Below, piece after piece: positions 8,933 to 16,045 of a stretch of 64,000 bases of DNA. The notes under the pieces are model-generated. The model had not been told where the DNA came from. It searched no databases and worked only from the letters and a program-made list of their open reading frames with translations. Position numbers and translations under genes: made by a program. Each line of letters starts with the position of its first letter. Position 1 is the first letter of the stretch. Where the stretch lies: NCBI GenBank assembly GCA_028688895.1, contig JAQTXG010000002.1:1-64000 (forward strand), in the 5' to 3' direction. This stretch comes from Candidatus Altimarinota bacterium (GTDB lineage: Bacteria; Patescibacteriota; Gracilibacteria; BD1-5; UBA6164).

Positions 8933-8963
8933 AAAAGGTTTAGAATAAATTCTAAACCTTTTA
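8933..8963. terminator. Bidirectional terminator
   Basis: 13-bp inverted repeat AAAAGGTTTAGAA / TTCTAAACCTTTT between convergent genes. It overlaps the stop of the YvcK-like gene. Confidence 0.8.
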
Positions 8964-9947
8964 TTTAATATGTTTTTTAACTATATTATGTATTACTTTA
9001 CCTACTTTATCAAAACTATGTCTGACAAATGTGTGTTCATGTAATAAATCTGCTTCTATTACTTTATATGATTTTCAGTTGAAATGCTCCTCATGTCTTA
9101 CTTTTACTGGTTTTTTCTTTTCTAGTGAAAAGTATTTATCTGACATCTTTTCTGAAATGTAACCATCGTTTATAACTACAAAATCAAGCACGTTTTCTCA
9201 AAGGTATTTTTCTATTACATCTACAAAATCAATTGCTTCAAAATCAGTTGTTTCTCCTGGTTTAGTCATCAGGTTACAGAAATATATTACTTTTGCTTTT
9301 TTATTTCATGCAATAGCTTCTTTTATACCTTTTACAAGTAGATTTGGAATGATCGAAGTATACAAATCTCAAAAAGCAATAATTATCAAATCTGATTTTT
9401 CTAGTGCTTTTATAGCCTTTTCATTTGCTTTTACTTCTGGAGTAAGATATGCTGTTTTTATAGGAGAAGATTTTTCATTTAGATTTAAGTCTATATTAGT
9501 TTCTCATTCTACTATAGTACCATCATTTAGCTCTACATTTAGATTTGATAACTCTAGTGTAACAGGTATTACTCTCCCCTTTACTCTAAACATCTTGCAT
9601 ATTTGCTTCAATCATTTATCAAAATTTCATGTTATATCAGCCATAGCAGTTATTAGTAGATTTCATAGATTGTGTCATCATACTGAACAATTTTTGACAT
9701 ATCTATAATCAAACAATTTCTTAACTAAATCGTGTTCACAAGATAAAGCCATTACTGCTCTTCTCACATCTCCTGGAGGTAATATTCAAAACTCTTCTCT
9801 AAGTACTCATGTAGATCATCCACTATCACTCATAGAAATAATAGCAGAAATATTGTAATCTTCGTTATCTCTGATACTAGAAAGTATTCAGTAACTACCA
9901 TTTCATCAACCTATCGTCGTAACTTTTATCTTTTTATTTGCATTCAT
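8961..9947 (-). CDS. YvcK-like protein (gluconeogenesis factor, CofD-like fold)
   Basis: 328 aa. The nucleotide-sugar-binding start GGGNGSYGIL, then SMSDSGGSTGVLREEFG and PPGDVRRAVMAL, are signatures of the YvcK/GluP branch of the CofD superfamily. In other bacteria these proteins bind UDP-GlcNAc and affect cell-wall synthesis and carbon metabolism. Much of the glycine-rich first motif is written with TGA. The gene is single between a terminator and the HD gene. The exact role here is not known. Confidence 0.88.
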
Positions 9948-10052
9948 AGTATAAACATTATTTTTCGATATTTTATATTTAAGTGATTATATATTAAAAG
10001 TAAATAAAAGCTAATCAATTTTTAATAAAATAGTAAGTATTCCCAAATTTTT

Positions 10053-10838
10053 TTATTTTCTAAACTCCAACTGATTTGTTAGATAATTTATATCATCTTC
10101 TCAACCGTAATTAAAATGTAATTTTATCCATTTATCATACAAATTGTATCCTGTATTTTCTGACAGTGAATTTAAATTGTGTGTTCTAGAATTGTCTAGA
10201 CAATTCATATCATTGAAATCTGAATTCATATCTAAAAAAGTATCTGAAACATCTATATTATTTCAAAAATAATCCAAGATATTTTCTACTATTTTTCTGA
10301 CTTTATTTTTCGTATAGTCAAATGGTCATACTTCTAGTCACCATTTAGATAATATGATTGCAAACATCTCATTTCATGCAAAAAGTTCATGAGTTATTTC
10401 TAGATGTGAATCCAATTTATCTGCAAAATCTACTATTTGAAACTCTATTCAGTCTTTGTTTTCCACTTTTAAAAGTATTTCTTTGTAATCATTTTTTTCT
10501 GATATATTTTTATAGTTTTCATATAAAATATCTATAGCATTTTCACAATCCTTTTCGTATTCTTTTAGTTTTGATTCTGAGAATTTTTCCTTATCCATAG
10601 CTAAAAAATCACCCGTAATTATCTCAGCGTCATCATGAAATCTAGCCATTTCTCTGACTAAATCTATATCTATATTTATTTCTGAATTTTTCATCAAAAA
10701 ATCAGCTACTTCAAAAGCTATCCATTCTACTCTTTTAGAATGGATTTTTAGATTTGGTCTATAGTACATCGGTGTGCATGGACTTCATTTGTAACGAAAT
10801 ACTTTGCTAAGTTCTTCGTCTCTGGATAATAGATTCAT
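10053..10838 (-). CDS. HD-domain hydrolase
   Basis: 261 aa. HD-superfamily metal ligands are visible: His33 (LKIHSKRVEW), His68-Asp69 (ARFHDDAEI), and Asp in IVDFADKLDSHLE. The layout resembles 5'-deoxynucleotidases of the YfbR type and small (p)ppGpp-like hydrolases; the substrate cannot be told. The C-terminal half has no recognised motif. It lies 18 bases downstream of the nucleotidyltransferase/NDK fusion, so probably in the same transcript. Confidence 0.75.
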
Positions 10839-10856
10839 ATACTAATATTAATAATA

Positions 10857-11843
10857 TTACAAAAACCATTTTACTAAAACCTTACTAAATTCATAAAAGT
10901 CTTTTGGGCAGTGTACTATATTATCACATGGTACATCAACTATTTTACCAATAGGAAAATCAAAATCATCAAATTGCTTATCTCTAAATATATACCTAAT
11001 TGAATCTTCTCTACATTTCATAGGCCAATAACTATTTCATTTAAGATAATCAGCTTTATTTATTGCATCATTTCATTTAACTATTAAAATTATAACTTTT
11101 TGATTTGTATATAACTTTTTATTTATCTCTATAGCTTTATTTATATCATCTTGCCCTAAAATTTTTCATAGTTTTTCATATTCATCTCTATACAAATATT
11201 CGATGTCATCTCATAATAATATGACTTCTCTTTTATCTTCTATAGTAAATCAATTTTCTATTATATAATCCTCTATTTCTTGGTAAATTAATTTTCAATT
11301 ATCTGATTTTCTAGATAAGCTACTAGGTTTTAATATGAAAAATGTATAATTTGATTCATAATATTTTTCTAATAAATTATTAAACTTATCCTTGTATCAA
11401 ATTTTTCTTGGATTTTCATAATCACTTCATTTTTTGTAAAACTTTATAATATCAGAAAATCATAAACTTTTAAATATAACTCAATTTATTTCAATATTTT
11501 CTATATTTTTTGTAAAATCAGCTATTTTAGTAGCTAATTCAAGGGAATGAATAGATAATTTTGCTCAATCCTTAAATAATCTAACAGAATTATGATCAGT
11601 AAGTTCACAAGTTATTTCTTTTTCGTCTTTAAATAATTCTATGATTTTACTATAATTCTCTTCTTTTGTAATCAAATCTATGTCTCAAACTACTATATTT
11701 TCATCTCAAGAGTAATATAAATATGATAATGAACCATATAAATAAATATTTATTCAATATGGTTTTATTTTTGAATCAAAATATTTGTAAAATTCTAGTA
11801 ACTTTTCAAATGTTTCATTGTTTATTACTTTAAATTTAGACAT
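10857..11843 (-). CDS. Nucleotidyltransferase fused to an NDK-like phosphotransferase domain
   Basis: 328 aa with two domains. Residues about 1-160 look like a polymerase-beta-type nucleotidyltransferase: YLYGSLS (GS at 37-38) followed by VGDIDLI (DID at 54-56), and a later IHSLELATKIADF helix. Residues about 165-328 resemble nucleoside diphosphate kinase: FFILKPSSL (the KP lysine), IIENGFTI, VIILIVKGNDAI, DSIRYIFR, and DNIVHC with His311 at the position of the catalytic histidine. The arginine of the RDLLG motif seems to be missing. I know of no standard family with this architecture. It lies 18 bases from the HD gene; Fic is upstream. Confidence 0.72.
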
Positions 11844-11863
11844 ATTTTTAAATTATATTATAA

Positions 11864-11956
11864 TTATTTTGATAAATTTAATACATAACTACTAATACAC
11901 TTTTGTAGATCTAATAATAATGATAAATCCTTTCAATCTATTTTTGTTCTATCCAT
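11864..11956 (-). CDS. Candidate 30-aa peptide
   Basis: ATG to TAA, 30 aa, one TGA-Gly, start MDRTKIDGKDLSLLLDLQKC. It lies between fic and the fusion gene. It may be a remnant of a longer gene or chance; little supports it beyond an open frame. Confidence 0.25.
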
Positions 11957-11974
11957 AATAAAATATGATGATAA

Positions 11975-12760
11975 TTAATACTTATATATCTCTTTATTTA
12001 TAACTAGTTCTAACTCTTCTTCTTTGAATTCTAAAAAATTTGAATTCATAAAATCTATATAAGTTTTAATATCATTGTCAGATTTTTCAATACTTTCTAT
12101 ATATTCTTGTCTATTTTTAAAATAAACAATATTTACATTATTCAAAGTGTATAAGAACCATAAATTTTGTAATAATCTAGCAGTTCTTCCATTTCAATCT
12201 ACAAAAGGATGAATTTTTACAAAATCTAAATGTAATAAATATCAAAATTCTAAAACTTTTTCAATATCATTCAAATCAATTTTTTCATACAAATCAATAT
12301 ATTTAACTATAAAATCATTCATTAAATAACTTACTTTTTCATACCTTGGTAAAACAGCCCTAGAAAAAGCAATTCTTACATTTTGTTGTCTATATATTCA
12401 AGCCCAGTCATCGTTAATATTATTAAGTAAAAAAGAATGTATTTTTAAAATATTATCTTCTGTAAATATATCTGAAAACTTTTTCTTAGATTTTTCAAAT
12501 CATGAAGATAAATCAAAAATGAAATTAAAAGCATTTTTATGATTTATTACTTCAAAATGTTCTATTAAGCTATGTTTAGGGATTGTTTGTCATTTCAAAA
12601 CTAAACTAGTTTCCTTTTCGCTTAGAGTAGTTCACTCAATAGCATTTGAATTATAATTGTATTTCACATCCAAAAAATCTTTAATAGACTTTTGCATAAT
12701 TTTATCTAGTGGCAAAAAAGCATTAAATTCTTTTAGTTTTTTTATTAGTTTAGTTTTCAT
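11975..12760 (-). CDS. Fic-domain protein (predicted AMP transferase)
   Basis: 261 aa. The Fic active site HPFVDGNGR is complete at 184-192, with the catalytic His184. An N-terminal SNAIEG at 38-43 fits the [S/T]xxxE[G/N] inhibitory motif of class II Fic proteins, so activity is probably self-restrained. Fic enzymes transfer AMP to a Ser, Thr or Tyr hydroxyl. The target is unknown, and no separate antitoxin is seen. TGA encodes Gly in the active site and the inhibitory motif. Confidence 0.9.
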
Positions 12761-12827
12761 AAAGTTTATAAATTATATATTGAAATGATTATATTTAAAA
12801 AGTAAACAAAAGCCAGTTTTTATAAGC

Positions 12828-13619
12828 TTATCCAATATCTTTTTTTCAAATTTTTTCTTGCACAATTGAAACTAATTCATCATGTATCTTATCGTTTGAT
12901 GCTATATATCATTTTATTTCTCAATCATATGCTTGTTCATTTCAAAATACATCAGTCATTTTTCATCATGCTTCCTCTACTAGTATCTTGAGACTTGCTC
13001 AATCATGAGCAGTATTATGTGGAAATAATACTGCATCAATTTCTCATGCACAAAGCATAATTCCACCATATAATACACTACAAAATTGGAAGTATTTGAT
13101 TCATTTTGAGCTTAAATTTTTCACTACATCTGATATATCATATATAGCAGTAGAAAAAAATTCTCAAGAAATAATAGTATTTCAATCAATTTTTGATTTA
13201 TTATTTACAGTTACTCTTTCTCCATTTAAATATGTTCATTTTCACTTTTCTCATATGAGTAATCTGTCCATATATGGATCATAAATTACTCATGCTATTG
13301 GTTCTCATCTATATACCAAGGCTAGAGAAAAAGTAGAAATAGGAAAACCACAAGAAAAAGGTATAGTACCGTCAATAGGGTCACATACCCATAAATAGTC
13401 AGAATTATTTTCAAAATTACTCTCTTCTTCTCATTTGAGATCATGTGTTGGAAAGTATTTTTTCAATTCTTCTATGACTAATGTATTGATTTTTTTATCT
13501 GTAATTGTTACAGGAGAAAAGTCAGACTTCATCTGTTTTTTCATTCACAGTTTGAATTCTGACTTGATAATTTCTCAACTTTTTCTGGCTATGTATTCTA
13601 GGAATTGTAGGTATGTCAT
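12828..13619 (-). CDS. Inositol monophosphatase family protein
   Basis: 263 aa. Metal-site motifs: GEEESNFE (Glu ligand), WVCDPIDGT at about 80 with a CGFPISTFSLALVY stretch after it, and HDGASLKILVEEAGGKMTD near the C-terminus, where the usual WDxAAG is changed to HDGASL. The family hydrolyses inositol phosphates, PAP or sugar phosphates; the substrate is not decided. It is 10 bases downstream of the P-loop kinase gene. Confidence 0.85.
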
Positions 13620-13629
13620 GATAATGTTT

Positions 13630-14151
13630 TTAAGAATTAACCAATTTTTCCAATTCTAATATCATTTCTTCTTTTGATAAAATACTAGAATCTAAAGTTA
13701 AAATGTCTTCTTTTTTAGTATCAATATATTCGTTATAAATCTCTATAAATCTGTCTAGTGATTTATTTGAAACTTTTCATCAATTAATCTCTACGTCTTT
13801 TAATCTTTGTAAAAATCTTTCTTTCAAAATCTCTAAAGGTGCTTCTAAATTTATTTGATAAACTTTTATATCTAATTCTTTTAAAAATGACTCTAGTTTA
13901 TTAAAAATATATGGTGATTTTCATTCATATATAATATTCATTTCATTTTTTATAGCTGTTTTTGCTAATGAAACTAACATCTCATCCAATGTATTTAAAT
14001 ATGAATTATTTTGATTGTTGTAATCAGAAATCAACCACTTGATTTTATCAATGTTTAAATGAAACATATTGGATGATTTTTCTAGCATAGATTTTACAAG
14101 TGTACTTTTTCATGCACAACTTGATCAATATAAAAAAATTGCTTTTGTCAT
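13630..14151 (-). CDS. P-loop kinase of the zeta-toxin/AAA_33 type
   Basis: 173 aa. Walker A GSSCAGKST at 9-17 near the N-terminus and a lid-like LEILKERFLQRL segment. The size and pattern fit small-molecule kinases such as chloramphenicol or nucleoside kinases. It is followed closely by the phosphatase-like gene, so the two may act on related phosphorylated metabolites (inference from spacing). Confidence 0.7.
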
Positions 14152-14165
14152 TTTTAAATAAAAAT

Positions 14166-15983
14166 TTATTTAACTAAAACTGCCTTTATTCTCCTAACTC
14201 CTCTACTACTAGATTCTTCTTTTTGTATTACAAATCTTCACATATTTTGAGAGTTTTCGATGTGTGGTCATCCACATAATTCTTTACTGTAAACTGTTCA
14301 GTCTGCTCATACCATAGAGTATACTTTTACAGTTTCTGGGTACTTTTCCCAAAAACTTCACTCTACACCAGATGCTTTTGCATCTTCTTTTGGCACATTT
14401 GTAACTGAAACAGTTAATCCTGATGCAATTGCTTCATTTACATATGCTTCTACTTTGTCTAGTAAATCTTTTTCTATTTTGTCATCGTTATTGAAGTCAA
14501 ATCTAAGTCTTTCTGCTGTAATATTTGAACCTTTTTGATGTACATGAGGTCATACGAATTTTCTAAGACCTGCCAATAATAAGTGAGTAGCAGAATGAAG
14601 AGCTGTTGTTTCTTCTCAACTATCAGCTAATCATCATTTAAATTTTTGCTCTGCTCATGCTCTAGAAAGTTCTTGGTGTTTAGTTTGTGCTATATTAAAT
14701 CAGTCTATATCTACTTTTAATCATTTTTCTTGTGCTAATTCTACTGTCATTTCTAGTGGAAAACCATAAGTATCGTATAATTTGAATGCTTTATCTCCTG
14801 AAATTGTATCTACTTTGTTCCCTGTTCTTTCAAATGCTATTTGGAAACCTCAAATCAATTTATCAAATTCTTTTAATCCTTTTTCTAATGTTTCACCGAA
14901 TTGTTTTTCTTCTCTAAGTATTTCATTTACTATTTCTTCTTCTTTTTCTATCATATGAGGATATGCATGTCATAGTTTTTCTACTACTTGAATAGCTACA
15001 TTGTGCAAAAAATCTCATTTAAATCATAGTTTGTATGCTTGTCTGATAGCTCTTCTGATAAGTCTTCTAAGTACATATCATTGATCAACATTACTAGGTA
15101 ATACTCAATCACTTATCATAATAGTTGCAGTTCTAGCGTGATCTGCAATTATTCTGATAGATTTCATTGTAGTTTCATTGTAATCTACTCCTATATTTTT
15201 TGATATTGAATGAATAATACTATTAAAAATATCAGTATCATAAACAGTTTTTACACCATTAAGAGTAGCTGTGATTCTTTCTAGTCACATACCTGTATCT
15301 ACATTTTTATTTGGTAATTTCACTAAACTACCATCTGGTAATCTATTGAATTCCATAAATACATTGTTCCATATCTCCATCCAGTTTTTTTCATCATTTC
15401 ACACATTTGATCATGCTGGTGGAAATTCACTAGCTCATACCCAGTAAAATATTTCTGTATCTGGTCCACAAGGTCCAGTTGGTCCTGCAGCCCACCAATT
15501 TTCTGATTTAGGTAAGTATGATATTCTATCAAGTGGCATACCTTGCTCAGCCCATATAGTAGCTGATTCTTCATCTCTAGGAGCATCTTCATCTCATTCA
15601 AATACTGTTACTGCTATCTTTTTTGGGTCTATATTTAACCATTTTGGACTAGTAAGTAATTCGTATGACCATGCTATAGATTCTTTTTTGAAATAATCTC
15701 AAAGTGACCAATTCCCAAGCATTTCAAAGAATGTTAAGTGTGTATTGTCTCATACATCATCTATGTCACCTGTTCTGATACATTTTTGAGAATTTGCCAA
15801 TCTCTCTCCACTAGGATGTTTTTCTCACAACAAATATGGTACTAGTGGCTGCATTCAAGCAGTGTTAAAAAGCACTGTTGGGTCATTTTCAGGTACTACT
15901 GGAGCACTTGGAACTACTACATGTCATTTAGAAGCAAAAAACTCTAGATATTTTTCTCTAATATCTGCACTATTGTATTTCAT
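14166..15983 (-). CDS. alaS: Alanyl-tRNA synthetase, short form
   Basis: 605 aa. Class II catalytic core with [32 protein letters not shown], and [12 protein letters not shown], then the editing domain with [14 protein letters not shown] and ELCGGPH. The usual C-terminal oligomerisation and C-Ala region (another 200-270 aa) is absent: the protein ends soon after the editing domain at RRIKAVLVK. Start ATG 15983, no Shine-Dalgarno, with a promoter-like pair upstream. Confidence 0.96.
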
Positions 15984-16017
15984 ATTTTTAATTTTAATTG
16001 TTAAAGAAATTGGCTTT

Positions 16018-16045
16018 ATTCTAGCTAAAATGTACAAAAAAACAA
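16018..16045 (-). promoter_or_regulatory. Candidate alaS promoter
   Basis: On the minus strand TTGTTT (16040-16045), a 16-base spacer, TAGAAT (16018-16023), 35 bases before the alaS start. Confidence 0.45.

Follow-up and report, generated by a model that had tools for sequence, protein, structure and literature searches.

Nucleotidyltransferases (NTases) of the pol-beta type occur as stand-alone proteins such as TM1012 (PDB 4hx0/2fcl/2ewr) and as the MntA antitoxin of HEPN-MNT systems, in which a GS-xn-DxD motif holds Mg-ATP (PMC7641770, PMC11586414). In the nucleoside-diphosphate kinases (NDKs; PF00334), residue roles have been assigned to K, Y, R86, T92, R104, N114, H117, S119, E128 and D12, and the Asp, Ser and Glu shape access to, or line, the histidine site (PMC7554756). 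Long-insert NDKs, such as those of Pyrobaculum aerophilum (1XQI) and Borrelia (4DI6), have extra residues in two loops. No description of an NDK-nucleotidyltransferase fusion was found in the open literature searched, many journals being outside its scope.

Such a fusion is encoded on the minus strand of the 64,000-nucleotide stretch of DNA analysed here (the window).

10857..11843, minus strand: NTase-NDK fusion gene (protein P0001), 328 aa in code 25, with 14 TGA codons read as Gly
11364..11843, minus strand: pol-beta-type nucleotidyltransferase domain, residues 1-160, assigned from GS-x15-DxD, the TM1012 match and the stand-alone proteins L002 and L003
11676..11735, minus strand: NTase active-site motif G37-S38...D54-I55-D56, invariant in four aligned family members
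10860..11351, minus strand: NDP-kinase-like domain, residues 165-328, assigned from Pfam NDK, hhalign and AlphaFold/Foldseek
10911..10913, minus strand: His311, equivalent of the NDK phosphohistidine in an alignment with 25 stand-alone NDKs

The frame is open only under code 25 (TGA=Gly) and is broken under table 11; the table 11 reading of 10857-11843 was dropped and code 25 preferred. Code 25 is used across the whole window, and we consider it right because the housekeeping genes gyrA, alaS and rpoA also have many in-frame TGA codons (42, 28 and 20, respectively). Given this code, the coordinates, strand and length in the initial annotation of the gene are correct. Rfam gave no match in the fusion-gene region.

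A profile of the NTase half, built from P0001, its full-length relative P0002 and the stand-alone L002 and L003 from other Patescibacteria, matches TM1012 with an E-value of 0.001, and NCBIfam Lnu(P) matches P0001 weakly. By this profile comparison the NTase half is a distant relative of TM1012. It has in common with TM1012, L002 and L003 the GS loop, the DxD motif and a length of ~160 aa, and G37, S38, D54 and D56 of its GS(37-38)-x15-D54-I-D56 motif are invariant in 4 of 4 aligned members, the stand-alone NTases included. Unlike these stand-alone proteins, the fusions have Ser97/His99 at the third acidic position: the third-carboxylate Glu of TM1012 aligns with Ser97 of P0001, in a stretch of low alignment confidence, and two residues further on both fusions have His99 where the stand-alone NTases have Asp. 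The two Asp would still bind metal, with uncertainty about the third acid; because of the two substitutions, NTase activity is not assured. MntA is likewise a minimal pol-beta NTase, but it lacks the NDK domain. The fusion does not fit the HEPN-MNT toxin-antitoxin systems, since these combine GS-x10-DxD with an adjacent HEPN gene, whereas the fusion has the x15 spacing and its neighbours are Fic and HD genes, with no HEPN gene adjoining.

The initial annotation had joined the NTase to an NDK-like fold, and both the fold and the joining are borne out. Pfam NDK matches P0001 over residues 166-290 (E 8e-5, 22.9 bits, under the gathering cut-off of 27) and P0002 along almost the full length of the profile (E 3e-12, 46.9 bits, above the cut-off). 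With hhalign, the NDK half aligns to the stand-alone NDK L017 over 150 columns (probability 95.5, E 1.6e-8). An AlphaFold2 model of the fusion has a mean pLDDT of 85.8, and its top Foldseek matches are NDP kinases, the best being 1XQI (E 9e-8); TM-scores normalised to the target are 0.67-0.82 among the best of these matches. Although the model is in line with the sequence evidence, it does not count as independent support, because its eight-sequence alignment included real NDKs and NTases; with just the two fusion sequences, the model was poor (pLDDT 46). Judged from the profiles and the predicted structure, the C-terminal half is a true NDP-kinase fold. Fold, motif order, Lys, Tyr, Ser/Thr, R105-type Arg, Asn and catalytic His are common with PF00334, and the long-insert NDKs have their extra residues in two loops, as the fusion does. 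It differs from solved NDKs in its low identity (~17%), the attached NTase and the absence of the KPD Asp, R88, Ser120 and Glu129 equivalents.

The same genome retains a canonical stand-alone NDK (L013), and thus the fused domain does not substitute for it. The window's contig also carries, at around 91.6 kb, a second divergent stand-alone NDK paralog of 163 aa (L014:1465-1956), which adjoins an RNase H-like gene. Most of the loop from Thr94 to Arg105 is deleted in this protein, and Lys, Arg88, Arg105, Asn, His and Glu129 are kept; possible relatives occur in genomes G001, G004 and G012.

The full-length relative, P0002 (L010:1495-2457), is encoded on contig JAQUKG010000047.1 of a Candidatus Gracilibacteria MAG (G505), from another genus of the same family. 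Identity to P0001 is 53% overall, 52% for the NTase half and 59% for the NDK half. Given a full-length copy in another genus and in an unrelated context, an assembly or frame artefact can be ruled out. A simple count between the two genes gives dN ~0.36 and dS ~0.99 (dN/dS near 0.36), which argues for constraint on both halves and against an assembly chimera. We searched three overlapping sets, namely the 353 other genomes of the class, 59 close relatives and 380 genomes sampled from the phylum, and found no full-length fusion in them besides that of G505; in the 380 phylum genomes the NDK half returned ordinary stand-alone NDKs and noise. The four other same-genus genomes have no intact copy, scans of genome contigs gave nothing beyond JAQUKG010000047.1, and phages, plasmids and IMG/VR, searched with either protein or with half-alignments, yielded no relatives. 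Stand-alone NDP kinases are near-universal, being found in 260 of 288 class genomes, and fused, re-tooled copies are exceptional among the matches listed.

Alignment of both fusions with 25 stand-alone NDKs shows which parts of the kinase pocket are retained. K172 (K12), R283 (R105), N308 (N115) and H311 (H118) are kept in both proteins, as had been proposed for Lys172 and His311. The T94 equivalent is S271 in P0001 and Thr in P0002, and Y218 is the likely Y52 equivalent in two alignments, although the 25-NDK multiple alignment shifts this loop. At four positions invariant in 25 of 25 stand-alone NDKs, P0001 has replacements (KPD Asp by S174, R88 by D265, Ser120 by P313 and Glu129 by V322), and P0002 carries the identical S, D, P and V. 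The earlier claim that the substrate-binding arginine is missing holds for the R88-type residue but not for the R105-type residue, which is present as R283, and three further residues are replaced. The suggestion that the protein could transfer phosphate is likewise upheld in part, by the kept His, Lys, R105-type Arg and Asn, and weakened by the four losses. Since R88 and the equivalents of the Asp, Ser and Glu that position the histidine are gone, ordinary NDP-kinase turnover by the fusion is doubtful.

A gene represented by just two full-length copies, with both active sites departing from the canonical, could be a functionless fusion, either in decay or produced by chance read-through. However, the identity and dN/dS between the copies, their identical active-site replacements and the open frames in two genera make this very improbable.

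Given that the catalytic pocket is rebuilt, we suspect an accessory role for the NDK half, and our favoured reading, which we put a little short of an even chance, is a nucleotidyltransferase to which an NDK-derived domain adds accessory nucleotide binding. The gene would give rise to one soluble two-domain protein, in which the GS loop and D54/D56 of the N-terminal NTase hold Mg-NTP and NMP is passed to a putative partner molecule or protein. The C-terminal domain would descend from a long-insert-type NDP kinase and may still bind nucleotide via K172, Y218, S271, R283, N308 and H311, probably as an accessory nucleotide or substrate binder with weak or altered phosphohistidine chemistry and not as a housekeeping NDP kinase. 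This is consistent with one uninterrupted frame in each of two genomes from different genera, the conservation of both halves, and the same four NDK replacements in both fusions alongside the kept K, R105-type Arg, N and H. However, the kept His311 is odd if the domain merely bound nucleotide, the third acid of the NTase (S97/His99) is not secure, and the confident structural model relied on an alignment with real NDKs and NTases.

Alternatively, the protein could be a bifunctional enzyme, in which an active, specialised NDP kinase half makes or regenerates NTP for the NTase half by local supply or channelling. We consider this unlikely: K172, Y218, S/T271, R283, N308 and H311 are kept in both proteins and purifying selection acts on both halves, but the equivalents of four residues invariant in 25 NDKs are lost in both and the genome has a separate canonical NDK. 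There is only a slight chance, in our judgement, that the NTase and the rebuilt NDK act on each other's substrates, which would make the fusion a new enzyme type. An example would be NMP transfer to an NDK-bound nucleotide or to the NDK histidine, the product being an unusual nucleotide or a nucleotidylated protein that serves as a signal or in control of the adjoining Fic.

The genes around the fusion bear on whether it works with its neighbours.

10839..12827, minus strand: Fic and fusion block, by synteny inserted between the phosphatase and HD genes, which are adjacent in G002 and G004
11975..12760, minus strand: Fic gene, 261 aa (Pfam Fic E 8e-18), with SNAIEG inhibitory and HPFVDGNGRTAR catalytic motifs
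10053..10838, minus strand: HD gene, YfbR-like (Pfam YfbR-like E 1e-14)
12828..13619, minus strand: inositol-monophosphatase-family (HisN-like) gene, the usual partner of the HD gene

In the window the order on a single strand is alaS, a small kinase, the phosphatase (IMPase family), Fic, fusion, HD and yvcK. The order, also on a single strand, is alaS, phosphatase, HD and yvcK in G004, and alaS, Fic, GNAT, phosphatase, HD and yvcK in G002, while G001 and G003 have neither phosphatase nor HD between alaS and yvcK. Fic and the fusion thus form a ~2 kb insert between phosphatase and HD, and the alaS-yvcK interval (window 8961-16037) is a gene-gain hotspot in the genus. The GC content is ~0.21 in Fic, the fusion and the kinase and 0.27-0.32 in the other genes of the interval. 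The small P-loop kinase (Zeta-toxin/AAA_18-like, 173 aa) lies at window 13630-14151, between alaS and the phosphatase gene, and has no counterpart at the four same-genus loci compared. Upstream of yvcK (window 9956-10011) and of Fic (12758-12813) lie the two copies of a 56-nt direct repeat (79% identity), which contains a promoter-like TTTAC...TATAAT element; of the two, the one at yvcK is conserved in both G002 and G004.

The HD gene is present without the fusion in G002, G004, G005 and G012. Because the phosphatase-HD pair occurs in same-genus genomes without the fusion, we regard the pair as independent of it. In G505 the fusion lies between pyrF/pyrE-like and rsmI-like genes (names from our reading of the sequences), and with the independence of the pair this indicates that HD is not a partner of the fusion. 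The initial annotation had taken Fic, NTase-NDK and HD as a hint of a small regulatory or defence module, and the three genes are indeed adjacent on the same strand, with a gap of 18 bp between fusion and HD. However, G002 and G004 have HD and phosphatase but no fusion, neither Fic nor HD adjoins the fusion in G505, and in the PADLOC defence library Fic and the small kinase have matches but the fusion and HD have none. Fusion, HD and Fic are therefore not conserved together, which largely refutes the module and leaves it next to no probability. The fusion gene appears to be rare and accessory, sitting in a hotspot of gene exchange among neighbours that are mostly there by chance.

The Fic gene is the neighbour for which a link to the fusion may exist. 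In G002, a Fic gene (L049:4509-5294) that is 92.7% DNA-identical to that of the window is followed by a 54-bp spacer, in which 35 bp match the fusion's last codons and downstream spacer, with 23 exact bases. The score of this scar was equalled in 0 of 2000 dinucleotide shuffles and 0 of 2322 control windows, and suggests that an ancestor of G002 carried Fic and the fusion and then lost the latter. We take it as a hint, since it is short and AT-rich and many matches with comparable E-values occur across the genome; chance AT-rich matches dominate the search for DNA remnants in the 59 relatives, which is therefore uninformative outside G002. In the G002 Fic, moreover, Asp replaces a Gly of HPFxDGNGR (HPFVDGNDRTSR instead of HPFVDGNGRTAR), and this protein is possibly inactivated. 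Adjacency of Fic and fusion is present in the window, possibly left as a remnant in G002, and absent at the G505 fusion and the G006 Fic; the remnant is the sole hint that the two may move together.

These observations raise the possibility of a toxin-antitoxin-like arrangement, in which the fusion modifies or restrains Fic by nucleotide transfer, by analogy with the modification of HepT by MntA. The arrival of Fic and fusion as one inserted block of equally low GC, the scar directly after the G002 Fic and the changed catalytic motif of that Fic would fit such a role. However, an inhibitory SxxxEG motif is already present in Fic itself, no fusion adjoins the 59%-identical Fic of G006, the G505 fusion has no Fic, and the scar is known from one lineage only, among AT-rich short matches of similar score. 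We regard Fic control as improbable, and our order of preference is an NTase with an accessory domain, then a bifunctional enzyme, then a Fic-control role.

The fusion is real and rare; it joins members of two known families, and its NDK pocket is rebuilt in the same way in both copies. A new system is so far unsupported, and the fusion matters mainly for research on nucleotide-transfer enzymes and on Patescibacteria. In two independent copies the same four residues of the pocket are replaced, which offers a clean, testable case of a repurposed housekeeping enzyme: in bacteria that have reassigned a stop codon, an NDK may have been built into a nucleotidyltransferase.
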